Positions 13,946 through 41,093 of a DNA stretch of 48,976 bases are shown here, one piece after another. How positions within the stretch are numbered: the stretch's first letter is position 1; the number at the start of each line of letters is the position of its first letter. The notes beneath the pieces are model-generated. The model was not told the origin of the DNA and ran no database searches. It saw nothing but the letters and a program-made list of their open reading frames with translations. Source of the DNA: an uncultured Alistipes sp. (GTDB lineage Bacteria > Bacteroidota > Bacteroidia > Bacteroidales > Rikenellaceae); assembly GCA_944326855.1 (NCBI GenBank), contig CALVFO010000034.1:1-48976 (forward strand), read 5' to 3'. Made by a program: the position numbers and the translations under genes.

Positions 13946-14154
13946 GTTTCGGAGAATTGGCATGCTTGGGAACCTGAAAATCATATATTGCCGAGGGGTC
14001 TTCTTCGTCCGGGCTCCGCTACAGGCCGGGAGAAAGGCTGTTCGAATATGATGAGCCAGGAACGATCGGAGCAGATGTGAGAGGGCGGCAGCGAGACATT
14101 TCCCGGGAAGGTGTGGAACCGTATGTCGTCGGTTGGAACGTCCCGGGCCTCGCG

Positions 14155-14733
14155 TCAGATTTCTCCGGCTTCGTACAGTAGAATCAACATTTCGATTTGT
14201 CGGTCTTCGCCGTAGCGATCGTAGGTGTCTTTCAGGTTGGCGCCGAAAATCCGGGCAACCCCCTGCCAAAGAAAGGCACTGAAACTGCCTCGCAGATCCT
14301 TGACCAACTGATAGGACGTGCGGCTGGTTTCACGATCGATCAGTTTGATGAGAATTTTTCCCTGGGCGAAGGTCATATTCCGTAAAACGGGGGTGTATTT
14401 TTCTTTGAGCTTTTTCTCCATGGCCTTGACGAAAGCCTGCTGCTCCCGCTTGGTGCGGAGAGTGAGCAGGTGATTCTCCATGGCTTTCAGGGTGGCGTTG
14501 GCCTCTTTGGCAATGGGATATACCTTTTTGAGGTTGTAGATCAGACGGGCGTAACGACGGGTGTCGATGCGCTTGGGAAAGATATAGATGGGGGAAACAT
14601 CCACGACGATTACGGTATCTTTCCCTTCGAGTCGGCGATACATACGCGTAAAGCCCGCGTTCTGGGCCCTGAGTTCCACCAGAGGAAGGCTCAATAACGC
14701 TAACGATAAGGTGATAAGTAATTGTCTTCTCAT
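14155..14733 (-). CDS. DUF4294 domain exported protein
   Basis: A 192-residue protein when started at the ATG at 14733. This start gives a clean signal peptide (MRRQLLITLSLALLSLPLVELRAQ) and sits just downstream of a consensus -7 box. Upstream in-frame codons run through the promoter and are rejected. The mature part matches the DUF4294 family, with conserved stretches PKRIDTRRYARLIYNLKKVYPIAKEA and FAQGKILIKLIDRETSRTSYQLVKDLRGSFSAFLWQGVA. The function is unknown; it is widespread in Bacteroidetes. It is transcribed convergently with the OstA-like gene and divergently from the flavodiiron gene. Confidence 0.85.
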   Translation of the reverse strand: MRRQLLITLSLALLSLPLVELRAQNAGFTRMYRRLEGKDTVIVVDVSPIYIFPKRIDTRRYARLIYNLKKVYPIAKEANATLKAMENHLLTLRTKREQQAFVKAMEKKLKEKYTPVLRNMTFAQGKILIKLIDRETSRTSYQLVKDLRGSFSAFLWQGVARIFGANLKDTYDRYGEDRQIEMLILLYEAGEI

Positions 14734-14751
14734 GCGAAATCGCAAATATTT

Positions 14752-14771
14752 CCTACCTTTGCAAAGGTAGG
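14752..14771. promoter_or_regulatory. 20-bp perfect palindrome carrying two opposed -7 boxes
   Basis: The sequence CCTACCTTTGCAAAGGTAGG is self-complementary. It presents TACCTTTG (consensus TAnnTTTG) on the plus strand at 14754-14761 and on the minus strand at 14769-14762. The minus box would give a leader of about 20 nt for the DUF4294 gene; the plus box a leader of about 100 nt for the flavodiiron gene. A second plus-strand box, TATCCTTG at 14831-14838, is closer to that gene and may be its main promoter. Confidence 0.6.
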
Positions 14772-14867
14772 CAGAAAACTGAAATCCTTGTTTCGTTATT
14801 ATCAATATAACGGTTTCGATGCCGAAATGTTATCCTTGAAATATTGATGTATAAAAATAGAAAAACG

Positions 14868-16055
14868 ATGCATTGTCAACAACAAGTAACCCCGAGGGTT
14901 TTCTGGACAGGGGTCAACGATCGCCGCAAAGAACTGTTTGAAAATATCTGGCCTCTTCCCAAAGGCGTTTCCTATAACTCTTATCTGATTCGGGACGAGA
15001 AGTGTGTGCTGATGGATACCGTGGAGAACGGCAGCGACGCTTCCTACCTGAACTGGATTACCGATACGTTGGAAGGTCGGACGTTGGATTATCTGGTGAT
15101 TCACCACATGGAACTGGATCATGCGGGAGAGATCGAAAATCTGCTGAACCGCTATCCCGATGTGAAAATTATCGGCAACAGCAAAACCTTTAAAGTCTTG
15201 CAGGCCTATTACGGCGAGCTGCCGAATCTGGTGGAAGTCAAGGATGGCGAAGAACTCAAGATCGGTTACCACACCTTGAAGTTCGTCTTTACGCCCTGGG
15301 TGCACTGGCCCGAAACGATGATGACCTATGAAATGACCGATGGATTGCTCTTTTCGGGCGATGCGTTCGGGATGTTCGGTACGCTGGATGGAGGCGTATT
15401 CGACGATCAGGTCCATTTCGAAGTTCATGAATCGGAAATGCGTCGTTACTACTCCAATATCGTGGGTAAATACAGCTCGATGGTGCAGAAAGCCCTGGCC
15501 AAACTTTCCGGAGTGAAGGTCAATACGATCTGTCCGTTGCACGGATTGGTTTGGCGGAGCGATCCGGCCCGGGTAATCGGACTCTATGACCGTTGGAGTC
15601 GTCAGGAAGGCGAAAACGGCGTGGTGGTGATTTACGCTTCGATGTATGGCAATACGGCTCGTATGGCCGATTATATCGCTTTCAAGATGGCTCAGCAGGG
15701 CGTGAAGAAGATTCAGGTGTTCGATGTTTCGAAAACCCATATCTCTTACCTGATCAACGAAATCTGGAATTACAAGGGGGTAATTCTGGGCAGTTGCGCC
15801 TACAATACCCAGATGTTCCCGTTGATGCACCAACTTACGCACGAACTTTTGTGCATGGGCGTTAAGAATAAGTATCTGGGCATTTTCGGTACCTACAGCT
15901 GGAATGGGGGAGGGGTACGCAACCTCGATCTGTTCGCTCAGGAAATCGGCTGGGAAAAAGTGGCTCCGTCGGCAGAAATTCTGGGCCGTCCTACAGACAG
16001 CAAGTACGCTGCCTGCGATGTATTGGCCGATGCGATGGCTGCCAAACTGTTATAG
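14868..16055 (+). CDS. FprA-family flavodiiron protein
   Basis: Flavodiiron proteins reduce O2 to water or NO to N2O in the cytoplasm of anaerobes, protecting oxygen-sensitive enzymes. The 395-residue product has an N-terminal metallo-beta-lactamase-like domain with iron ligands HxExDH (H80, E82, D84, H85) and GDAFG. A C-terminal flavodoxin domain (VVIYASMYGNTARMADY, about 246-262) binds FMN. There is no C-terminal rubredoxin domain, so an external donor is expected. I chose the ATG at 14868 because it gives the usual short N-terminus before the VFWTGVNDRRK signature. A start at 14847 is possible. The gene is divergent from the DUF4294 gene. Confidence 0.93.
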   Translation: MHCQQQVTPRVFWTGVNDRRKELFENIWPLPKGVSYNSYLIRDEKCVLMDTVENGSDASYLNWITDTLEGRTLDYLVIHHMELDHAGEIENLLNRYPDVKIIGNSKTFKVLQAYYGELPNLVEVKDGEELKIGYHTLKFVFTPWVHWPETMMTYEMTDGLLFSGDAFGMFGTLDGGVFDDQVHFEVHESEMRRYYSNIVGKYSSMVQKALAKLSGVKVNTICPLHGLVWRSDPARVIGLYDRWSRQEGENGVVVIYASMYGNTARMADYIAFKMAQQGVKKIQVFDVSKTHISYLINEIWNYKGVILGSCAYNTQMFPLMHQLTHELLCMGVKNKYLGIFGTYSWNGGGVRNLDLFAQEIGWEKVAPSAEILGRPTDSKYAACDVLADAMAAKLL

Positions 16056-27509: not shown

Positions 27510-28523
27510 ATGGGCAATACGAATGATACGGCTCTGGGCTCTTCGGTACTGCGATTCAGACAGGTGGAAGAGTTTCTCCTGAAAGGAATCGCCTCCGGGC
27601 GTTTCCCGGTCGGTCAACGTTTGCCTTCGATCGCCTGGACCGCTTCGCATCTGGGATTCGCCCCCAAAACCGTTCATAAGGCTTATTGCATCTTGTTGGA
27701 ACGCGGAGTGATCGAATCGGTGCCCCGCAAAGGCTATTATGTCCGTTCGGCGGCCCCTCTTTCTCCGTTGAACGTTTTTTTGCTGCTCGACAACTACTCC
27801 TTTTATAAGCAATCCCTGTTTCAGACGATCAAACAGGATTTCGGAACCGGAGCCGAACTGTCGGTCTATTTCCACTTTTACGATCCTGAACTCTTTCGTC
27901 GTTGTATTCGGGAAAACGTGCGGAAATTTACGACCTACATTATCTCTTCTTTTTACATGGAAGATCTCGAAGAGGTGCTGAGTTGTCTGCCTCCCGAACG
28001 ATTGTATCTGTTGGGACGTCATCCCCGCAGTCTGCGTCAGGAGTATCATGGCGTTTTCCAGGACTTTCATCAGGACATGATCCGGGGACTGACTTCGACC
28101 GGAGACCGCATGTGGAAATACGATCGGCTGGTGCTCTATTTCCGCGATTCGGTCACCACGCCTCCGATCGAACTGCTGAACGGATTTATGGATTTTTGCC
28201 GGGATATGCGTATGGATCATCGCATCGTGCGGGCGAATGAACGGCCTCGGATTCATCAGGGAGAGGCCTATATCGTGATCGACGACGAAGATCTGATCGC
28301 TTTGGTACAAATGGCTCATCAGAAACATTATATTCTCGGGCAGGATCTCGGATTGATCTCCTATAACGATACCCCCATCAAAAGTGTGATCTCTACGTCC
28401 GGGGTTTCGGTCATCTCGACCGATTTCGAGCAGATGGGACACTCCATCGTGCAAATGGTCAAACAACGACGATTCGATCATTTGGTCAATCCGAGCTGTT
28501 TTATCGACCGCGGCTCTTTTTGA
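27510..28523 (+). CDS. GntR-family transcriptional regulator with periplasmic-binding-like effector domain
   Basis: A 337-residue regulator. The N-terminal winged HTH (about 14-76: FRQVEEFLLKGIASGRFPVGQRLPSIAWTASHLGFAPKTVHKAYCILLERGVIESVPRKGYYV) is typical GntR. The rest resembles a LacI/periplasmic-binding fold that would sense a small-molecule ligand (LNVFLLLDN..., ending GLISYNDTPIKSVISTSGVSVISTDFEQMG). In Bacteroidetes such proteins usually control adjacent sugar-catabolism genes. It lies immediately upstream of the aldo/keto reductase, UroD and corrinoid cluster. A 28-bp inverted repeat over that cluster's first promoter is a plausible operator. Confidence 0.9.
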   Translation: MGNTNDTALGSSVLRFRQVEEFLLKGIASGRFPVGQRLPSIAWTASHLGFAPKTVHKAYCILLERGVIESVPRKGYYVRSAAPLSPLNVFLLLDNYSFYKQSLFQTIKQDFGTGAELSVYFHFYDPELFRRCIRENVRKFTTYIISSFYMEDLEEVLSCLPPERLYLLGRHPRSLRQEYHGVFQDFHQDMIRGLTSTGDRMWKYDRLVLYFRDSVTTPPIELLNGFMDFCRDMRMDHRIVRANERPRIHQGEAYIVIDDEDLIALVQMAHQKHYILGQDLGLISYNDTPIKSVISTSGVSVISTDFEQMGHSIVQMVKQRRFDHLVNPSCFIDRGSF

Positions 28524-28674
28524 GTTGCCTTTATTTGTGATACTCTATACTACTATATTCCGCCCGATTTTCTCGGTTTATCGCGGCTATTTTCCGTTAA
28601 GTCGCCTATTGTTAGGGTAGTATGGAAGATGTGATTCTTTCGATTTTAATTTCTCGATCTCTTGCACACAATTC

Positions 28675-28702
28675 TGTATCTTTGTGTATACCTAAAGATA
28701 CA
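28675..28702. promoter_or_regulatory. Inverted-repeat operator overlapping the aldo/keto reductase promoter
   Basis: TGTATCTTT (28675-28683) and AAAGATACA (28694-28702) form a perfect 9-bp inverted repeat with a 10-bp spacer. The left arm contains most of the exact -7 box TATCTTTG (28677-28684). Occupation by the upstream GntR-family protein would block initiation. A nested GTGTAT/ATACAC repeat (28684-28689/28698-28703) is also present. The regulator assignment is inferred from adjacency. Confidence 0.6.
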
Positions 28703-28704
28703 CC

Positions 28705-29661
28705 ATGAGAACCGTAACATTGCCTGCGCTGGGGATGCCCCTCAGTGATTATTGCTTGGGAACAATGTATTTCGGCAGCAAGGTCGATGTGAAAACCTCG
28801 CTGCGGTTGTTGGATGTATATGCCGCCCATGGCGGTAATTTCCTGGATTCGGCCAATAAATATGCATCCTGGGTTCCCGGCTTTCAGGGCGGAGAAAGCG
28901 AACAGGTTCTGGGCCTCTGGCTCAAGGAACATCCTCGCGATCGTTACGTTCTTACCTCTAAAGTGGGCTTCCCTTATGGGGATATTCCCCGCAGCCTGGC
29001 AGCCAAATATATCATTTCCGAATGCGAAAAAAGCCTGACCCGTCTGGGTACGGATTATATCGATATCTATTTCGCGCATACCCAGGATCTTGATACGCCG
29101 ATTGAAGAAACGCTGAAAGCTTTCGATACACTATTGCAAAGCGGGAAAATCCGGGCAATCGGAGCCAGTAACTTCGATACATGGCCTTTGGCCGAAGCCG
29201 GTTGTGCCGCACGTCAATATGATTTGCCCGCCTTTTCGGTGTTACAACAGAGATATTCCTGTTTGCAACCTGTACTTGGCGCCGATTTCGGTACTCAGAA
29301 AGTGCTGACTCCCGAGCAGGTCGATTATTGTGCACGGAGAGAGTTGTTGGTGATGGCTTATTCTCCGTTGCTGGGCGGTTTGTACGAACATGCCGAGGCA
29401 CCCCTGCCTATACAATATGACTCCAGCTTGAACCGGAACCGACTTCGTCTGTTGCGGGAATCGGCGTCGGAGTACGGTTGTACTCCTTCTCAGTTGGTTT
29501 TGTCCTGGATGGCGTTCTCTTCTCCGGTGATCGTTCCGTTGGTGACCGCCAGCCGTGAGGAGCATCTGCTCGATAACTTGAAACAGGTTCCTGAACATCA
29601 GGTTCGTGAGTTCGCCGAACGTTTGGATGCCCTCGATCGTTTTACCATTAAATACAGCTAA
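28705..29661 (+). CDS. Aldo/keto reductase
   Basis: A 318-residue NAD(P)H-dependent TIM-barrel oxidoreductase. Family features are FLDSANKYASW (Asp and Tyr of the catalytic tetrad), SKVGFPYG (catalytic Lys), IYFAHTQD (catalytic His), the IRAIGASNF strand, and a C-terminal coenzyme loop (IVPLVTASREEHLLDNL). The substrate is unknown. It is the first gene of the UroD-MFS-corrinoid cluster and sits under the inverted-repeat promoter. This suggests it oxidises or reduces the sugar-like or demethylated product. The UroD-fold gene starts 16 bp downstream. Confidence 0.9.
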   Translation: MRTVTLPALGMPLSDYCLGTMYFGSKVDVKTSLRLLDVYAAHGGNFLDSANKYASWVPGFQGGESEQVLGLWLKEHPRDRYVLTSKVGFPYGDIPRSLAAKYIISECEKSLTRLGTDYIDIYFAHTQDLDTPIEETLKAFDTLLQSGKIRAIGASNFDTWPLAEAGCAARQYDLPAFSVLQQRYSCLQPVLGADFGTQKVLTPEQVDYCARRELLVMAYSPLLGGLYEHAEAPLPIQYDSSLNRNRLRLLRESASEYGCTPSQLVLSWMAFSSPVIVPLVTASREEHLLDNLKQVPEHQVREFAERLDALDRFTIKYS

Positions 29662-29677
29662 TAAATCTATAAAGATC

Positions 29678-30844
29678 ATGAACAGCAGAGAACGTGTAAT
29701 CAAAGCCATTAACCATCAGGAAGCCGACCGGGTGCCGTATGACCTTTCGGGAACCACCGTCACCGGGATATGCAAGGGCGCTTTCCTGAATGCGATGAAA
29801 GAACGCGGCCTTTCGACCGACTATGAAAAAGAAGTAGACCCGATTTCACAAATCGTGACACCGGTCGAAGAAACTCTGGTGGCTCTGAAATCCGATACCC
29901 GTCGTTTGGGGGCTCGTCGCGTGATCAACTACGAACAGATCCGTACCAAAGAGGGTAGTGTATGGTCGTTGGTCGATCACTGGGATTGCCTTTGGAAATT
30001 GGACGAAACCAAAGACCTGTATTATAATCAGTTTACCCATCCTCTCGAACAATACGATTCGATCACCGAAGGCTTGAAACATTGGAGCGTGCCCAAATGG
30101 TCGAACTACGTGGAACAGATGCGGGCCGATATCGCCGAACAGGCTCCCGCCCTGGGCGATTATTGCGGGATCGCCGACCGTAACTGTGCCGGTTTGACCG
30201 AAATGTCGCTGCGTATCCGCGGTTATGAAAAATGGTACATGGATATTTTCATGGATCCGGCCGGGGTGGAACAGCTGCTCGAAGATGTAACCCAACATAA
30301 ACTCGATTATTGGGCTTCGTTGTTCGACTGGATCGAAGAACAGGGGCTGCAGGATAAGATCCAGGTGGTTTCCGAATGCGACGACCTGGGTACTCAGAAA
30401 TCGACGCTGATCTCGCCCGATGACCTGCGCAAGATGGTGATCCCGCGTTTCAAACGGATCTGGGAATACACCAAGAAACGGATGCCGCACATCAAAAACT
30501 TCATGCACACCTGCGGCGCCGTACGTCCGATTCTGCCCGATCTGATCGAAGCCGGTCTGGATATCTACAACCCGGTACAGTTTACGGCTCACGACATGGA
30601 TCTCAAGGGCCTGAAACGGGATTTCGGAAAAGACCTCGTCTTCTGGGGCGGCGGTATCGATACGCAGTCGACTCTGTGCAAGGGAACGCCCGAAGAAGTG
30701 AGCGACGAAGTAAAACGTATCCTCGATATTATGGCTCCGGGCGGTGGTTTCGTCTTCGCTCCGGTACATAACGTTCAGGACGACGTCTCCGCAGCCAATT
30801 TCTGGGCTATGTGGGATACCCTGATGGAATACGGTAAATATTAG
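29678..30844 (+). CDS. Uroporphyrinogen decarboxylase-fold methyltransferase-like protein
   Basis: A 388-residue UroD-superfamily protein. I start it at the ATG at 29678 (MNSRERVIKAINHQEADRVP, the canonical opening of this family). It is not heme-pathway HemE: the sequence has a putative zinc-ligand pair H277-x-C279 in FMHTCGAV and WGGGIDTQSTLCKGTPEEV. These are patterns of corrinoid-linked UroD-like methyltransferases such as the methyltransferase I of acetogen O-demethylases. A role as substrate:corrinoid methyltransferase is inferred from the corrinoid protein and second methyltransferase nearby. A transporter gene follows after 22 bp. Confidence 0.8.
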   Translation: MNSRERVIKAINHQEADRVPYDLSGTTVTGICKGAFLNAMKERGLSTDYEKEVDPISQIVTPVEETLVALKSDTRRLGARRVINYEQIRTKEGSVWSLVDHWDCLWKLDETKDLYYNQFTHPLEQYDSITEGLKHWSVPKWSNYVEQMRADIAEQAPALGDYCGIADRNCAGLTEMSLRIRGYEKWYMDIFMDPAGVEQLLEDVTQHKLDYWASLFDWIEEQGLQDKIQVVSECDDLGTQKSTLISPDDLRKMVIPRFKRIWEYTKKRMPHIKNFMHTCGAVRPILPDLIEAGLDIYNPVQFTAHDMDLKGLKRDFGKDLVFWGGGIDTQSTLCKGTPEEVSDEVKRILDIMAPGGGFVFAPVHNVQDDVSAANFWAMWDTLMEYGKY

Positions 30845-30866
30845 ACTACTAACCCAAACTTTTTAT

Positions 30867-32192
30867 ATGAGCAAGTTCAATGAGGTCAACGAAAAGATCG
30901 GGCGGTATCGCTGGGTGATTTGTGCCCTGTTGTTCTTCGCCACGACCATCAACTACCTGGATCGGGCCGTTATCGGTTTGCTCAAGGAGTTGCTTACCGA
31001 AGAGTTTTCCTGGACGGAAAACGATTACGGGAATATCGTGATCTGCTTTCAGGTAGCCTATGCTGTCAGCCTGTTATTCGCGGGACGTGTAATCGATAAG
31101 CTGGGAACCAAGATCGGTTATGCGCTCTCTCTGGTGGTGTGGAGCTTGGCTGCCGTACTGCACGGCGTAGCCCGTGGCACCGGTGGATTTGCCGCCGCCC
31201 GAGCTTTGCTGGGAGTCGGTGAGTCGGGGAACTTCCCGGCTGCCAATAAAACAGTGGCCGAATGGTTTCCTCAGAAAGAAAGAGCCTTTGCAACCGGCTT
31301 GTACAATTCGGGAGCCAATATCGGAGCGATCGTCGCTCCGTTGCTGGTGCCCTGGATCGCCATGCATTGGGGATGGCAATGGGCTTTTATCCTGACCGGG
31401 GGTGTCGGTTTTCTGTGGATCATCTTCTGGGAAATCTTCTACGCCGATCCTTCGAAACACAAACGCCTTTCCAAGGCCGAGTACGATTACATCAACAGTG
31501 ACGCTCCCGCCGCGGAAACTCCGACCGAAACCACGGCCCCTGAAGAACGGGTAACCTGGAAAGAGTTGTTGACGTTACGTCAGACCTGGGCTTTCTTCTT
31601 TGGGAAATTCCTGACCGACCCGATCTGGTGGTTCTTCCTGTTCTGGTTGCCGGCATTCCTGGAAGTGCAATACGGCCTGAGCGGTATGCAGGTTTCCCTG
31701 CCGTTGATTTTCGTCTATACGTTCTCCAGCATCGGTAGTATCTTGGGCGGTTGGCTGCCTAAATATTTTATCGACAAAGGTTGGGGCGCCGGGCGGGCTC
31801 GTAAAGTCGCCATGTTGCTCTATGCGCTGGTACCTTTGCTGGTTCTCTTTGCACAGGGGGCCGGTGATGTCAATATGTGGTATGCCATCGTGATTATCGG
31901 ACTGGCCTGTGCCGCGCACTGTGCCTGGTCGGCCAACATTTTCGCAACGGTATCGGATATGTTCCCTAAAAAAGCCGTCGCTTCGGTGACCGGTATCGGA
32001 GGGATGGCCGGTGCTTTGGGCGGTATCCTGATCGCGAAGGCGGCCGGTCTGCTTTTCGACCACTTCAAGGCCTTGGGTGATATTACGGTGGGCTACGGAA
32101 TAATGTTCGTTATTTGTGCCGTAGCTTATATCCTGGCGTGGGTGATCATGCAGGTGTTGGCTCCCAATTTCCGAAAAGTCGAAAAACTGTAA
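30867..32192 (+). CDS. MFS transporter, ACS/hexuronate type
   Basis: A 441-residue, 12-helix major facilitator of the anion:cation symporter family. It has TTINYLDRAVIGLL in helix 1, the loop motif GRVIDKLGTKIGY, the signature RALLGVGESGNFPAANKTVAEWFP in helices 4-5, and a central hydrophilic loop around residue 210. ExuT-like relatives import hexuronates and other sugar acids with protons. The setting suggests it brings in the methylated or acidic substrate of the corrinoid cluster (inference). A 13-bp hairpin follows the stop codon. Confidence 0.9.
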   Translation: MSKFNEVNEKIGRYRWVICALLFFATTINYLDRAVIGLLKELLTEEFSWTENDYGNIVICFQVAYAVSLLFAGRVIDKLGTKIGYALSLVVWSLAAVLHGVARGTGGFAAARALLGVGESGNFPAANKTVAEWFPQKERAFATGLYNSGANIGAIVAPLLVPWIAMHWGWQWAFILTGGVGFLWIIFWEIFYADPSKHKRLSKAEYDYINSDAPAAETPTETTAPEERVTWKELLTLRQTWAFFFGKFLTDPIWWFFLFWLPAFLEVQYGLSGMQVSLPLIFVYTFSSIGSILGGWLPKYFIDKGWGAGRARKVAMLLYALVPLLVLFAQGAGDVNMWYAIVIIGLACAAHCAWSANIFATVSDMFPKKAVASVTGIGGMAGALGGILIAKAAGLLFDHFKALGDITVGYGIMFVICAVAYILAWVIMQVLAPNFRKVEKL

Positions 32193-32217
32193 ACGGTTTC
32201 GAGCTCCTAATTTTCAC

Positions 32218-32253
32218 GCAGGCGCTCCGGTGCATAAACTCCGGGGCGTTTGC
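32218..32253. other. Hairpin between the transporter and corrinoid genes
   Basis: GCAGGCGCTCCGG (32218-32230) pairs over 13 positions with CCGGGGCGTTTGC (32241-32253), three of them G-U, around a 10-nt loop. No T-run follows, so it is not a standard terminator. It may be an RNA-processing or stability element, or a leaky terminator, between the two halves of the cluster. It does not match a cobalamin riboswitch. Confidence 0.55.
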
Positions 32254-32284
32254 AGTGGAAAGGCACCAACTCCAAAAGAATGAT

Positions 32285-32303
32285 TATATTTACCGAAAAT
32301 ATA
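32285..32303 (+). promoter_or_regulatory. Possible promoter of corrinoid-protein operon, with inverted repeat
   Basis: TATATTTA (32285-32292) is one base from TAnnTTTG. The first seven bases form a perfect inverted repeat with AAATATA at 32297-32303. The AT-richness means the repeat could be chance. It lies about 45 bp before the corrinoid-protein start. Confidence 0.4.
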
Positions 32304-32337
32304 CAAACCTAAACTCTTTTAAAATCATTTTAGCATT

Positions 32338-32973
32338 ATGACGGATTTAAATTTGCTCTATGACGCAATCCTGAACGGCAAACTGGAACAATCGGTGGAA
32401 GTGACCAATCAGGCCGTAGCTGAAGGTATTGAACCTCAGGAGATCATCAACGGTTATATGATCAAGGCTATGGAAGAAATCGGTCTTCGCTTCCAAAATG
32501 GCGAAGCCTTCGTTCCCAATTTGCTGATGGCCGCCCGCGCCATGAAAGGCTCTCTGGATATTCTGCGTCCGTTGATGAAAGGCGCTAACAGCGTATCGAT
32601 GGGGAAAGTGGTGATCGGTACCGTCAAGGGAGACCTGCACGATATTGGTAAAAACCTGGTAGCTTCCATGTTGGAAGGCTGCGGTTTCGAAGTGATCAAC
32701 CTGGGCGTGGATATCTCCAGCGAAAAATTCATCGAAGCAGCCAAGGAACACAAGGCCGACATCATCTGCATGTCCGCTCTGTTGACTACCACGATGAACT
32801 ACATGAAAGAAGTCATCGACGCTCTGGAAGCTGCCGGTGTCCGCAAGGATGTGAAAGTGATGATCGGTGGTGCACCTGTGACCGATGCTTTCGCTCAGCA
32901 GATCGGTGCTGACGGATACAGCGAAAATGCCAACGGTGCCGTAGCTCTGGCCCGTAAACTGGTGGCAGAATAA
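32338..32973 (+). CDS. Methyltransferase cognate corrinoid protein (MtaC/MtbC-like)
   Basis: A 211-residue cobamide-binding protein that would shuttle a methyl group between two methyltransferases. The N-terminal helical cap (1-85: DLNLLYDAILNGKLEQSVEVTNQAV...GEAFVPNLLMAARAMKGSLDIL) precedes a Rossmann-like B12 domain. The lower-ligand motif is D99-x-H101-x-x-G104 in GDLHDIGKN; H101 would coordinate cobalt base-off. The S-x-L/T loop (CMSALLTT) and GGAPV complete the site. It stands alone, not fused to MetH. An activation-domain protein starts 12 bp after it and an MtaA-like methyltransferase follows. Confidence 0.93.
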   Translation: MTDLNLLYDAILNGKLEQSVEVTNQAVAEGIEPQEIINGYMIKAMEEIGLRFQNGEAFVPNLLMAARAMKGSLDILRPLMKGANSVSMGKVVIGTVKGDLHDIGKNLVASMLEGCGFEVINLGVDISSEKFIEAAKEHKADIICMSALLTTTMNYMKEVIDALEAAGVRKDVKVMIGGAPVTDAFAQQIGADGYSENANGAVALARKLVAE

Positions 32974-32985
32974 ACCTGAACGGAA

Positions 32986-33663
32986 ATGCGTGCCTCTGCC
33001 GTTATTTCTTTTTCGGAATTGGGCCTGACCCCCCAGCATGTCTATGCCAGCATGGGCTATCGGGGGGCGGAACCCGATTCGGAGACCTGCTCTCTGGTCG
33101 CCCGGATGTTGGCTGATCTGGAACGGGAAGTAAAACCCGCTTACGCATTGAAAGTACTGCCGGGAAAAGTCGAAGGTCATTCCGTGGTGATTGACGACAT
33201 CGTATTCGACACTCCGGTTTTCTTAGGTAAGATTTTGCAGGAGGCGCACCATTTCGCCCTTTTTGTCGTGACGGCCGGACAGGCTTATGACGATTGGGCG
33301 GCCCGAATCAAAAAACAGGGAGATATCTTGTGTGAGTTCGTAGCGGATGCCATCGGATCGGCAACGGTCGAAAGCATGGGATTATACGCCAAAAAACGTC
33401 TGGAGGAACTGTTGGGGGGAGCAACCCATTCCAGCACGTTTTGTCCGGGTCAGTACCATTGGCATATCTCCGAACAGCGCAAGTTTTTTACGCTGATGGG
33501 CGAAGACAATGTCGGGGTGACGATCAACGACAGTTTCCTGATGCATCCGATTAAATCGGTCAGTGGTCTCATCGGTATCGGTGAAACGCTCGACCCTACG
33601 ATTACCGCCTGCAGTCTGTGCCCGCGATTGGATTGTTTCCGCCGCAATGCAGGGCATGCTTAA
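32986..33663 (+). CDS. MetH activation-domain-like protein with C-terminal Cys motif
   Basis: A 225-residue stand-alone homologue of the methionine-synthase reactivation domain. It carries the SAM-binding-like stretch FCPGQYHWHISEQRKFFTLMG and INDSFLMHPIKSVSGLIGIG. In MetH this domain uses SAM and an electron donor to rescue oxidised Co(II). Here it probably reactivates the adjacent corrinoid protein, in place of a RACE-type ferredoxin activator. Beyond the normal domain it ends in C209-x2-C212-x4-C217 (CSLCPRLDC), a possible metal or Fe-S ligand set. The corrinoid gene lies 12 bp upstream and the methyltransferase gene 31 bp downstream. Confidence 0.82.
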   Translation: MRASAVISFSELGLTPQHVYASMGYRGAEPDSETCSLVARMLADLEREVKPAYALKVLPGKVEGHSVVIDDIVFDTPVFLGKILQEAHHFALFVVTAGQAYDDWAARIKKQGDILCEFVADAIGSATVESMGLYAKKRLEELLGGATHSSTFCPGQYHWHISEQRKFFTLMGEDNVGVTINDSFLMHPIKSVSGLIGIGETLDPTITACSLCPRLDCFRRNAGHA

Positions 33664-33694
33664 CGAATAACCCATACTAAATAAAGCAGAATAT

Positions 33695-34696
33695 ATGAGA
33701 AATATGAAAAAATGGGTGGAAGATTTGATCAACAGTGACAAACGTACCGCACTGCCGATCATGACCCACCCTGGTATCGAGATGATCGGCAAACAGGTGT
33801 ATGATGCCGTAACGGACGGTCGTGTTCATTTCGAAGCGATCAAAGCGGTCAATGAGGCTTATCCGCTGAGTGTGGCTGCTACGGTGATCATGGATTTGAC
33901 AGTGGAAGCCGAGGCTTTCGGTTGTGAAATCTCTTTCCCGAAGGACGAAGTGCCCAGTGTAGTCGGTCGTTTGGTATCGGATTATGCTTCGGTCGAAGCG
34001 CTCCAAGTGCCGGATTTGAATGCGGGTCGTATACAGCAGTATCTGCTGGCCAATAAATTGGCGGTGGAAAATATCGACAAACCCATTCTTTCCGGAGCGA
34101 TCGGTCCGTTTTCGTTGGCCGGCCGTTTGTTCGATATGACGGAAATCATGATGGCCTGCTACGTGGAACCCGACACGATCAACCTGCTGTTGCGCAAATG
34201 TACCGATTTCATTAAGAAGTATATTCTCGAATTGAAAAAAGTGGGTGCCAACGGGGTAGTATTGGCCGAGCCGGCTGCCGGTTTGCTTTCCAATGAAGAT
34301 TGCGAACGCTTCTCTTCGGTATATGTCAAAGAAATTGTAGAGGCCGTTCAGGACGAAAATTTCCTGGTGATTTTGCATAACTGCGGCAATATGGGTCATT
34401 GTACTCCCGCGATGGTGATGACCGGAGCCTGGGCTTTGCATTTCGGCAACAAGATCGATATGGTCAAGGCGCTGGAAGATTCTCCTTCGGATGTGGCTGT
34501 CATGGGGAATCTCGATCCGGTAGCTCTGTTCAAGGTAGCGACGCCCGAAGAAATGCGGGCTGCGACCGCAGAACTGTTGGAACGCACGAAAGGTTACAAG
34601 AATTTCGTGCTGTCGTCGGGCTGCGATACACCTCCCGAAGTGCCTGAAGCCAATATCAAGGCATTCTACGATGCGCTGATAGAGTATAATAAATAA
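33695..34696 (+). CDS. MtaA/MtbA-like corrinoid methyltransferase (UroD superfamily)
   Basis: A 333-residue UroD-fold protein with the zinc-thiolate ligand set of methylcobamide methyltransferases: H228-x-C230 (ILHNCGN) and C310 (SSGCDTPPEVP). MtaA/MtbA carry methyl groups from a corrinoid protein to coenzyme M. Bacteroidales lack coenzyme M, so the acceptor here could be tetrahydrofolate, another thiol, or the enzyme could run as methyltransferase I. Which of this and the 29678 protein faces the substrate cannot be told from sequence. It ends the cluster and is followed by a terminator. Confidence 0.85.
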   Translation: MRNMKKWVEDLINSDKRTALPIMTHPGIEMIGKQVYDAVTDGRVHFEAIKAVNEAYPLSVAATVIMDLTVEAEAFGCEISFPKDEVPSVVGRLVSDYASVEALQVPDLNAGRIQQYLLANKLAVENIDKPILSGAIGPFSLAGRLFDMTEIMMACYVEPDTINLLLRKCTDFIKKYILELKKVGANGVVLAEPAAGLLSNEDCERFSSVYVKEIVEAVQDENFLVILHNCGNMGHCTPAMVMTGAWALHFGNKIDMVKALEDSPSDVAVMGNLDPVALFKVATPEEMRAATAELLERTKGYKNFVLSSGCDTPPEVPEANIKAFYDALIEYNK

Positions 34697-38810: not shown

Positions 38811-41093
38811 ATGAAACGAGTGGTGATGAAAGGTTTGTGGATGATCTGTCCGTTGTTGATGTTGGGCTTTTCGGCTCAGGGTGCGAAAAACGACAACCCT
38901 CACAAAACATCCTTGAAGTTGTGGTATTCTCGCCCGGCGGAGGATTGGATGACCTCGGCCCTGCCCATCGGGAATGGTCGTATCGGCGCCATGATTTTCG
39001 GTGGAGTGGGGCAGGAACATATCCAGTTCAATGATAAAACCCTGTGGACCGGCAGCCGGAATGAAGGGGGCAATTATCAGAATTTCGGGGACATTTATCT
39101 GGATTTCGATCACCAAGGCTCTCCCAGCGAATATCATCGGGAACTCGATATCGAGCAAGCGATCGCCCGAACCCGTTATCGCATCGGACGCATCACATAT
39201 ACGCGGGAATATCTGGCCAGTTTTCCGGACGACGTAATTGCGGTCCGTTTGACGGCCGATAAACGGGGCAGTATCGGCTTTACATTACGCATGGTCGATG
39301 CGCATGAGGGAACGCAAAGAATCTCCGCGGAAGGTCAGCTCACGATTGCCGGCAAACTGGATGTACTGTCCTACGAAGCGCTGCTGTCGGTTGTCCCCGA
39401 AGGCGGTACGATGACCGCCACGGATACTTCCCTGCGCGTACAGGGAGCGAATGCCGTGACCCTATGGTTGAGCGCCGGTACCGATTACGATCCCAAAACC
39501 GAGGATTACCTGACTCGCCGCGACTGGCGGGCTGCCTTGCGCACGACCGATCAACAGGCACGTCAAAAAGGCTTCGAGGCCATCCGGACGGCGCATGTGG
39601 CAGACTACCGGGCCTTGTTCGATCGGGTCTCTTTATGGTTGGGCGATACGACCCCGCAACGTCCTACCGACGAACTGTTTGCCGCCTACAATGCCGGAGA
39701 ATACGATCCGGCGGCCGACGTACTCTATTTTCAGTACGGACGTTATCTAATGATTGCCTGCTCGCGGGCCGGGCTCGACTTGCCCTCCAATTTGCAGGGC
39801 TTGTGGAATAACAGCAACACCCCTCCCTGGCGTAGCGACATCCATTCGAACATCAATGTCCAGATGAATTATTGGCCGGCGGAGGTTACCAACCTGGCCG
39901 AGTGTCACGAACCGTTCATTCGTTATATTTACAACGAATCGCAGGTGCATGAATCCTGGCGGAAAATGGCTTCCGAACTGGAATGCGGCGGGTGGGCTCT
40001 CAAGACCCAGAACAATGTTTTCGGGTATTCGGATTGGAACTGGAATCGCCCGGCCAATGCCTGGTATTGCATGCATGTATGGGATCACTATCTGTTTAAT
40101 CCCGACAGCGATTATCTGGCTCGGACGGCCTATCCGATTCTGAAATCGGCCTGTGAGTTCTGGCTGGACCGACTGATTGTGGACGATGACGGGACCCTGG
40201 TCGCACCCAACGAATGGTCTCCCGAACACGGACCCTGGGAAAGTGGCATACCTTATGCACAACAATTGATTTGGGAACTGTTCAACAGCACGTTGCAGGC
40301 CGGGAAAATACTGGGCACGGATAACGAATTTATCGCATGGCTGGAGGATCGTTTCAACCGGCTGGACAAGGGGCTTGCCGTCGGTTCCTGGGGACAATTG
40401 CGGGAATGGAAACACCTGGAGGATGATCCCAAGGACCAGCATCGGCATGCTTCCCATTTGATCGGTTTGTATCCCGGTACATCCATTTCGCCGATGGGGA
40501 ACCGTCGGTATGCCGATGCGGCACGGGTTTCGCTCGAAGCTCGCGGCGATTTCGGAACGGGATGGAGCCGGGCCTGGAAAATCGCCTTCTGGGCCCGCTT
40601 GCTCGACGGCGATCATGCCCATCTGATTTTGCAAAACGCCATGACGCTGACCGATGCCCGGGGTGTGGTTTACACGACGGATAAGAACAGTGGAAGCGGT
40701 ATCTACGAAAATTTGTTCGATGCCCATCCTCCTTTCCAGATCGACGGCAACTTCGGAGCGACGGCCGGAATAGCCGAAATGCTCTTGCAAAGCCATAACC
40801 AGGAGTTGCATCTCTTAGCGGCCTTACCGACCGTATGGTCGGAAGGAGAAGTGAGGGGGCTTCGGGCCCGAGGCGGTTTCGAAGTCGACATGCGCTGGAC
40901 GGAGGGAGACCTGACAGAAGCCGAAATACGTTCCACGAAAGGCGGACCCTGTAAAATTCGCTGCCGGAAACCTTTTGGTTTGCAGGATGGATCCGCTCTC
41001 GCGCAACCCGATGAAACCGGCTATTATGTGCTGACGTTCCAAACCCTTCCCGGGGGGTCCTATCTCTTGAAAGCCGATACTCCGGAAAAGTAG
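38811..41093 (+). CDS. Glycoside hydrolase family 95 (alpha-L-fucosidase-type)
   Basis: A 760-residue exported enzyme (start at ATG 38811; signal peptide [24 protein letters not shown]). GH95 members are mainly inverting alpha-1,2-L-fucosidases, with some alpha-galactosidases. Hallmarks are the N-terminal beta-sandwich ([41 protein letters not shown]) and the (alpha/alpha)6 barrel with [17 protein letters not shown] (about 345), NEWSPEHGP (about 468) and [10 protein letters not shown] (about 643). A C-terminal sandwich ends the protein. The -7-like box TACTTTAG is at 38777-38784. No SusC/SusD or other glycosidase genes adjoin it, so it is an orphan enzyme, perhaps for mucin or milk-type fucosylated glycans. 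Confidence 0.93.

Follow-up and report, generated by a model that had tools for sequence, protein, structure and literature searches.

What would a set of corrinoid-dependent methyl-transfer genes do in a member of the Bacteroidales, beside a carrier of the sugar-acid type and an oxidoreductase? The question is posed by seven genes lying between positions 27,510 and 34,696 of contig CALVFO010000034.1 of an uncultured Alistipes sp. (assembly GCA_944326855.1). The whole contig, 48,976 nucleotides long, is the window analysed here, and it is one (C34) of the 55 contigs of a 2.48 Mb genome with an estimated completeness of 93%. All on the + strand, the genes of the block run in the order GntR-AKR-UroD1-MFS-Corr-Act-UroD2: a GntR regulator, an aldo/keto reductase (AKR), a first UroD-family protein, a major facilitator superfamily (MFS) carrier, a corrinoid protein, a relative of the MetH activation domain, and a second UroD-family protein. 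An earlier, sequence-only reading had picked out the same seven genes, and we find each of them present where it placed them, on that strand and in the family it named. Judged from sequence, fold and genomic context, the block probably encodes a corrinoid-dependent O-demethylase whose substrate is an O-methylated sugar, with a sugar acid the likeliest candidate.

In the mechanism that we propose, the MFS carrier would bring the substrate into the cell, and UroD1 would transfer the O-methyl group of the sugar to the Co(I) form of Corr. The demethylated sugar would pass into ordinary sugar catabolism, with AKR providing a redox step, and UroD2, through its His-Cys-Cys zinc site, would hand the methyl group to a thiol. 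Act, together with a RACo protein encoded elsewhere, would return oxidised corrinoid to Co(I). The GntR regulator would sense the substrate and act at an inverted repeat 5' of AKR.

O-Methyl sugars include the 4-O-methyl-glucuronate of xylans and arabinogalactans, the 2-O-methyl-fucose and 2-O-methyl-xylose of rhamnogalacturonan II, and many algal sugars. They presumably need demethylation before normal sugar catabolism, and the methyl group can be removed by an oxygen-dependent P450. The open-access literature searched, with subscription journals largely outside the search, yielded no route for the anaerobic removal of sugar O-methyl groups and no description of corrinoid-dependent sugar O-demethylation. 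A corrinoid route, if true, would give UroD-family genes in sugar operons a testable function, and would connect the breakdown of glycans with the supply of B12 and with one-carbon metabolism.

Enzymes, methyl carrier and predicted importer

The two UroD-family proteins differ in their zinc sites. UroD1 (29678..30844, +, PF01208) has 388 residues counted from the ATG at 29678, a start that was chosen because it agrees with those of its relatives; the mechanical open reading frame begins at a GTG at 29606. It has the UroD/MtaA fold, with 17-18% identity to MtaA (4ay7) in structural alignments, and in the motif alignment it is without the second zinc cysteine of the S-methyltransferases. UroD2 (33695..34696, +, PF01208, E 1e-56) carries the zinc site His228-Cys230-Cys310, and His-Cys-Cys is retained in all 26 aligned rows, the window protein being entered twice. 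This double counting of window proteins applies to the motif alignments generally, and the loci L047 and L111 are likewise one gene entered twice. The closest solved relative of UroD2 is MtaA 4ay7 (E 3e-15). Identity with HemE was rejected: UroD2 scores 80.7 bits against a cut-off of 302.95, and UroD1 gives no match at E 0.001. By the zinc-site rule used to tell the two apart, which comes from PMC10418091, UroD1 would belong with the O-demethylase-type methyltransferases I, being a UroD-superfamily protein by fold and lacking His-Cys-Cys by motif. We predict that UroD1 is an O-methyl-sugar:corrinoid protein methyltransferase (methyltransferase I) and that UroD2 is a methyl-corrinoid:thiol methyltransferase (methyltransferase II).

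Between them lies Corr (32338..32973, +), a stand-alone corrinoid protein and methyl carrier with PF02607 and PF02310 domains and the motif DLHDIG. Its nearest solved relative is 1y80 (E 5e-61), and a profile search of the genome found it to be the sole PF02607 protein. The DxHxxG-type pattern occurs in 27 of 30 sequences including that of the window, and one of the three misses is a truncated sequence. Act (32986..33663, +; PF02965, E 9e-8; 1j6r, E 5e-5) is a free-standing protein related to the activation domain of MetH and a predicted corrinoid reactivation factor. All three cysteines of its C-terminal Cys-x2-Cys-x4-Cys are invariant in 13/13 aligned sequences, window included, and likewise in all 16 sequences of a separate motif listing; they perhaps form a metal or iron-sulfur site. 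Possible fusions of each of these two proteins were seen among relatives: the 650-residue called frames at L171 and L177 match Corr and contain DLHDIG, and at L097 (8274-9854), a locus that also has Corr and UroD2, Act homology lies within a 526-residue frame.

The carrier (30867..32192, +) is of the anion:cation symporter type. Its best NCBIfam match is TIGR00893, the D-galactonate transporter model (E 4e-75), at 253 bits and thus below the model cut-off of 395, and among solved structures the galactonate transporter DgoT (6e9n, E 2e-54) is nearest to it. It is predicted to import a sugar acid, possibly methylated. AKR (28705..29661, +, PF00248, E 1e-56) adjoins UroD1/MFS in three other loci (L107, L110 and L115), and may carry out a redox step on the sugar or on its demethylated product. 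Intergenic gaps are 181 bp for GntR-AKR, 16 bp for AKR-UroD1, 22 bp for UroD1-MFS, 145 bp for MFS-Corr, 12 bp for Corr-Act and 31 bp for Act-UroD2. Because of these sizes, the block appears to consist of two tight gene groups, AKR-UroD1-MFS and Corr-Act-UroD2.

Genomic contexts and recurrence

Is there reason to think of a sugar as the methyl donor? In a scan of named genomes, 80 loci were kept of 574 relatives. The closest of them, L115, from an uncultured Bacteroidales metagenome-assembled genome (MAG), is 69-70% identical and has UroD1-MFS-AKR next to an L-rhamnose mutarotase (rhaM), a GH88-family and an alginate-lyase-family protein. The order at L107 is AKR-MFS-UroD1. In an uncultured Desulfosporosinus (L127, 3767-13516), UroD1 and Corr lie between xylose isomerase (XylA) and xylulokinase (XylB), suggesting the use of O-methyl-xylose. 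RhaT and RhaA adjoin UroD1 at L058, and L055 has GH29, a RhaT-like gene (below the model cut-off) and the complete set. TRAP- or Tct-type carriers, judged by eye, flank UroD1 in L112, L114, L116 and L120. A single locus of a Bacteroidetes MAG, L110, combines GH88, AKR, MFS, UroD1, Corr, UroD2, MtaB, CobW, RACo and Act. Its MtaB-type methanol:corrinoid methyltransferase (13999-15375; PF12176, E 6e-161) is an observation in its own right: together with Corr, UroD2, CobW, RACo and Act, it is a possible methylotrophy module in the Bacteroidetes.

Neighbours were counted from our own gene calls within six genes of one anchor per locus, over 91 loci in which UroD1 scored 150 bits or more; L111, which duplicates L047, and L042-L046, which come from the window genome, were left out. 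Neighbours were clustered by single linkage, and in most clusters no more than one member was tested by profile. An MFS-carrier cluster occurs in 18 of the 91 neighbourhoods, the window among them, and 16 of its members are within two genes of UroD1. A second UroD protein is found in 28 and a corrinoid protein in 12; clusters that we presume to be ABC-ATPase-like and Gfo/Idh/MocA-like are found in 22 and 20. UxaC and UxaE clusters, one member of each confirmed with Pfam, are present in 8 and 5 loci. UroD1 and a UxaC-cluster gene stand together in Chloroflexi-type MAGs (L137, L144, L146, L155, L164, L165, L167 and L169); most of these eight loci have a second UroD-like gene and five have a UxaE-cluster gene, making them candidate O-methyl-hexuronate operons. 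UxaC is also encoded in the window genome, on contig C11. One pattern that recurs is UroD1 near the isomerase of an unmethylated sugar, an arrangement that would suit demethylation as the first step. With such sugar-catabolic neighbourhoods around the relatives of UroD1, a methylated sugar or sugar acid is a plausible substrate; the sequence-only reading had suggested a methylated sugar acid or other methoxylated compound.

The window genome itself has nine PF01208 proteins, seven of them outside the block on contigs C17 (four), C21, C23 and C26. Those on C21, C23 and C26 are near GH2/GH28/GH106, GH95-like and GH38/GH106 genes, respectively. Within the window, a GH95-family glycosidase is encoded at 38811-41093, on the same strand and ~4 kb downstream of the block. 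Glycosidases are common in genomes of this order.

A donor other than a sugar, such as a methoxyaromatic compound, betaine or methylamine, or methanol, might instead be imported by the anion carrier. We consider this unlikely. It agrees with the profile matches of Corr, for which the top model is MtgC, followed by the general pyl_corrinoid model and MtbC, none of them reaching its cut-off, and with the match of Corr to 1y80; PMC13222342 places aromatic O-demethylases and a chloromethane enzyme in the UroD superfamily. Against it, a scan of ten window proteins found no MttB-type protein, the match of UroD1 to CdmB, the solved chloromethane enzyme, is only weak (E 0.0065), and isomerases, kinases and carriers of the sugar type are found repeatedly next to UroD1.

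We then asked how the block itself recurs, conserved synteny having been named earlier as a way to check it. The congener G295 matches the block gene for gene, GntR-AKR-UroD1-MFS-Corr-Act-UroD2, and its UroD1 is 95% identical; since synteny with G295 continues past either end of the block, this conservation is weak alone and no independent proof of a unit. The trio Corr-Act-UroD2 is found in varying order together with UroD1-like genes at L055, L094, L101, L110, L229 and L235.

Co-occurrence was counted in 295 genomes of the order, using profile and sequence matches for UroD1, UroD2, PF02607 and PF02965. UroD1-positive genomes have E <=1e-10, distant family members included; UroD2-positive genomes have at least 49% identity or, in G006, a fragment, and a contig-edge fragment in G164 (71 residues, 59% identical) was excluded. 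At least two PF02965 matches are present in 27/39 UroD1-positive genomes vs. 21/256 others (one-sided Fisher 3e-16, as are the tests that follow) and in 14/17 UroD2-positive genomes vs. 34/278 others (7e-10), some of the double matches being a MetH split over contigs. UroD2 is present in 12/39 UroD1-positive genomes vs. 5/256 others (2e-8), and at least two PF02607 matches in 15/17 UroD2-positive genomes vs. 93/278 others (1e-5). These values ignore phylogeny, and the genome rows are not phylogenetically independent. Synteny, co-occurrence and zinc-site motifs together uphold the earlier recognition of a corrinoid methyl-transfer module set with methyltransferase I, corrinoid protein, second UroD and activator.

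The block opens with the GntR regulator (27510..28523, +), which joins a helix-turn-helix domain (PF00392, E 1e-8) to a periplasmic-binding-like effector domain (PF13377, E 4e-9) and probably senses the substrate; its ortholog opens the matching block in G295. Directly 5' of the AKR start is an inverted repeat, GTATCTTT-N10-AAAGATAC (28676..28701, no strand assigned), a candidate operator/promoter. It overlaps a TATCTTTG box at 28677-28684. Both arms are identical in G295, inside a ~45 bp near-identical stretch, and the rest of the GntR-AKR intergenic region is mostly diverged between the window and G295. TAnnTTTG boxes, which we take to be the Bacteroidetes -7 element, are mildly enriched in the window (31 observed vs. 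20.5 expected).

Several observations weigh against a sugar O-demethylase. Among its own members, the block has no isomerase, glycosidase or RACo gene, and glycosidase proximity alone is weak evidence, glycosidases being so common in the order. The UroD1 relatives linked to UxaC are only 36-39% identical, and their substrate may differ; the GH29, RhaM/RhaT and XylA contexts hint at neutral or deoxy sugars and not at one exact substrate. The congener G300 has the trio with no adjacent UroD1, MFS or AKR. The UroD1-positive set reaches down to ~28% identity, with a full-length match of at least 55% in only 4/39 genomes; a close ortholog of UroD2 is missing from 27 of the 39, and 12 do not reach two PF02965 matches. 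In G208, UroD1-like, UroD2 and Act are present, yet the PF02607 search gave no match. Finally, CdmB and one O-demethylase act without zinc, according to PMC13222342, and the zinc-site argument is to that extent not conclusive.

Activation, methyl acceptor and a decayed MetH

An O-demethylase has an ATP-dependent reductive activator of the RACo/RamA kind, and the window genome encodes one outside the cluster. Contig C1 carries the gene of a RACo-type protein, which joins Fer2 to PF17651 and PF14574 (the middle and the C-terminal domain of RACo); it is the only PF14574 match of the genome, and genes for XylA and XylE lie ~5 kb away. The family was matched in 1/14 control genomes. For the acceptor, the sequence-only reading had offered tetrahydrofolate, which we drop for this genome: a genome search for the pterin-binding domain PF00809 gave just two matches, one FolP-like and the other a MetH that no longer has its folate motifs. 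In some Chloroflexi-type and other relatives, a pterin-binding protein is near UroD1 (L154 by Pfam; L129, L171 and L175 by clustering).

A rival reading is a system for methyl-S or methyl-Se compounds of the type 1 mlp kind, in which UroD2 would methylate or demethylate thiols or selenols via Corr and UroD1 would be another enzyme of this sort or a neighbour that acts independently. The His-Cys-Cys of UroD2 is the S-methyltransferase site and its closest solved relative is MtaA, the G300 trio has no adjacent UroD1, and type 1 mlp clusters are likewise without a folate methyltransferase (PMC10418091). We nevertheless give this reading a low probability, given that the cluster has no Ram or RACo gene, the one found being on another contig, that UroD1 is without the second cysteine and only 17-18% identical to MtaA, and that UroD1 neighbourhoods are often sugar-catabolic.

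The MetH of the window genome (G000), on contig C25 (L042:3071-5656), raises a further question about where the methyl group might go. It has 861 residues, and similar decayed proteins are encoded in congeners at L192:1495-4077 and L232:500-4234. In G000 and G295 the homocysteine-domain motifs NCG and GGCCG are kept, GERTNVAGS, SGGVSNLSFSFRG and DVHDIGKN have given way to other residues, and neither protein has an activation domain; G300 shows a similar decay with the activation domain retained. The C25 protein was accordingly rejected as an intact four-domain MetH. Identity to the normal MetH of the congener G302 in the homocysteine, folate and B12 domains is 70/45/30% for G000 and 73/41/28% for G300, compared with 79/88/85% between two normal congener MetH. 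Between G000 and G295, the ratio of nonsynonymous to synonymous rates (dN/dS) is ~0.09, 0.16 and 0.23 for these domains, rough values with dS >1; all are below 1, and the decayed domains are therefore still constrained. The homocysteine domain is thus conserved, and the folate and B12 domains drift. In the homocysteine-domain tree, the three decayed MetH share one side of a branch whose support is weak (74/79).

All three genomes with a decayed MetH (G000, G295 and G300) carry the Corr-Act-UroD2 trio. A normal or split MetH accompanies the trio in G296, G297, G299, G305, G306 and G310, of which G296 and G299 are normal; G307 has no MetH match and a corrinoid fragment; and a MetH without stand-alone PF02607 is found in G298, G301, G302, G303, G304, G308, G309, G311 and G312, several of them incomplete. 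As a link between decayed MetH and trio, this family tally is suggestive only. More widely, a MetH-length frame (>1,200 residues) is present in 10 of the 17 UroD2-positive genomes (G019, G043, G064, G109, G118, G169, G190, G219, G248 and G257). G006 has an 862-residue frame with a strong activation-domain match; G106, G211 and G262 have strong activation-domain matches with no frame length listed; and G000, G108 and G208 have weak PF02965 matches only. We therefore rejected the trio as a general replacement of MetH, and the earlier proviso that the UroD and corrinoid proteins might serve only MetH-like methionine synthesis does not hold generally.

For this lineage, the trio could still serve methionine synthesis alone, taking over the B12 and activation roles that the decayed MetH has lost, with UroD1, MFS and AKR as unrelated neighbours. 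Corr being the sole PF02607 protein found in the genome would fit, as would the loss of MetH folate and B12 motifs in the trio carriers G000, G295 and G300 and a genome search that returned no MetE-type PF01717 match. We think it very improbable: besides the 10/17 count and the normal MetH of the trio-bearing congeners G296 and G299, it has no obvious methyl donor because the folate site is lost, and L110 too has AKR-MFS-UroD1 near Corr and UroD2.

A link between sugar O-demethylation and methionine is plausible in this lineage. As a tentative and rather doubtful extension drawn from sequence, UroD1 might charge Corr from O-methyl sugars, and the MetH homocysteine domain might take the methyl group in trans, giving methionine without folate. 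Alternatives for the kept homocysteine domain are S-methylmethionine use or methionine auxotrophy. The decayed MetH makes the folate-free route a specific and cheap prediction; if true, O-methyl sugars would feed the methionine and S-adenosylmethionine pool without folate, and MetH would be a trans-acting homocysteine methyltransferase.

Comparison with known systems

How does the block compare with described corrinoid systems? With the O-demethylase systems of MtvB, OdmB, VdmB and MtoB, enzymes named in PMC13222342, it shares a UroD-superfamily methyltransferase I, a small DxHxxG corrinoid protein and, in the genome, a RACo-type activator. Unlike them, it has no folate methyltransferase II, and none was found intact elsewhere in the genome; its second UroD, with a thiol-type zinc site, may fill that place. 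The extra Act with its Cys-x2-Cys-x4-Cys tail and a sugar rather than aromatic context also set it apart from these systems of acetogens and methanogens.

Compared with MtaABC and MtbA/MtbC of methylotrophic methanogens, UroD2 resembles MtaA/MtbA, His-Cys-Cys included, and Corr resembles MtbC/MtgC. However, all these matches score under the curated cut-offs of those models and the methyltransferase I is UroD-type, although MtaB does occur in the relative L110. Type 1 mlp clusters, as described by Kountz and Balskus (PMC10418091), also combine UroD-superfamily methyltransferases and a corrinoid protein with no folate methyltransferase nearby, and a thiol acceptor was proposed for them. By their definition a cluster contains Ram and two proteins like MtaA, whereas the block has one MtaA-like protein, one O-type UroD and no Ram. 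Membership was rejected on both counts: there is no Ram/RACE gene within 2 kb, and the >25% identity to a known soluble coenzyme M methyltransferase that is asked of two or more MtaA-like proteins is not reached by UroD1, at 17-18% to MtaA 4ay7, the sole reference compared.

The folate-independent core methionine synthases MesA-MesD methylate homocysteine from a corrinoid protein without folate, as the decayed MetH might; in PMC7857596 they are MetE-related, whereas here a decayed MetH would provide the candidate, its homocysteine domain. Membership in that MetE-type group was rejected, PF01717 being without a match in the window genome. We file the block as a variant of the O-demethylases: it would work like one, but departs from them in the folate methyltransferase that is usual in the bacterial systems.

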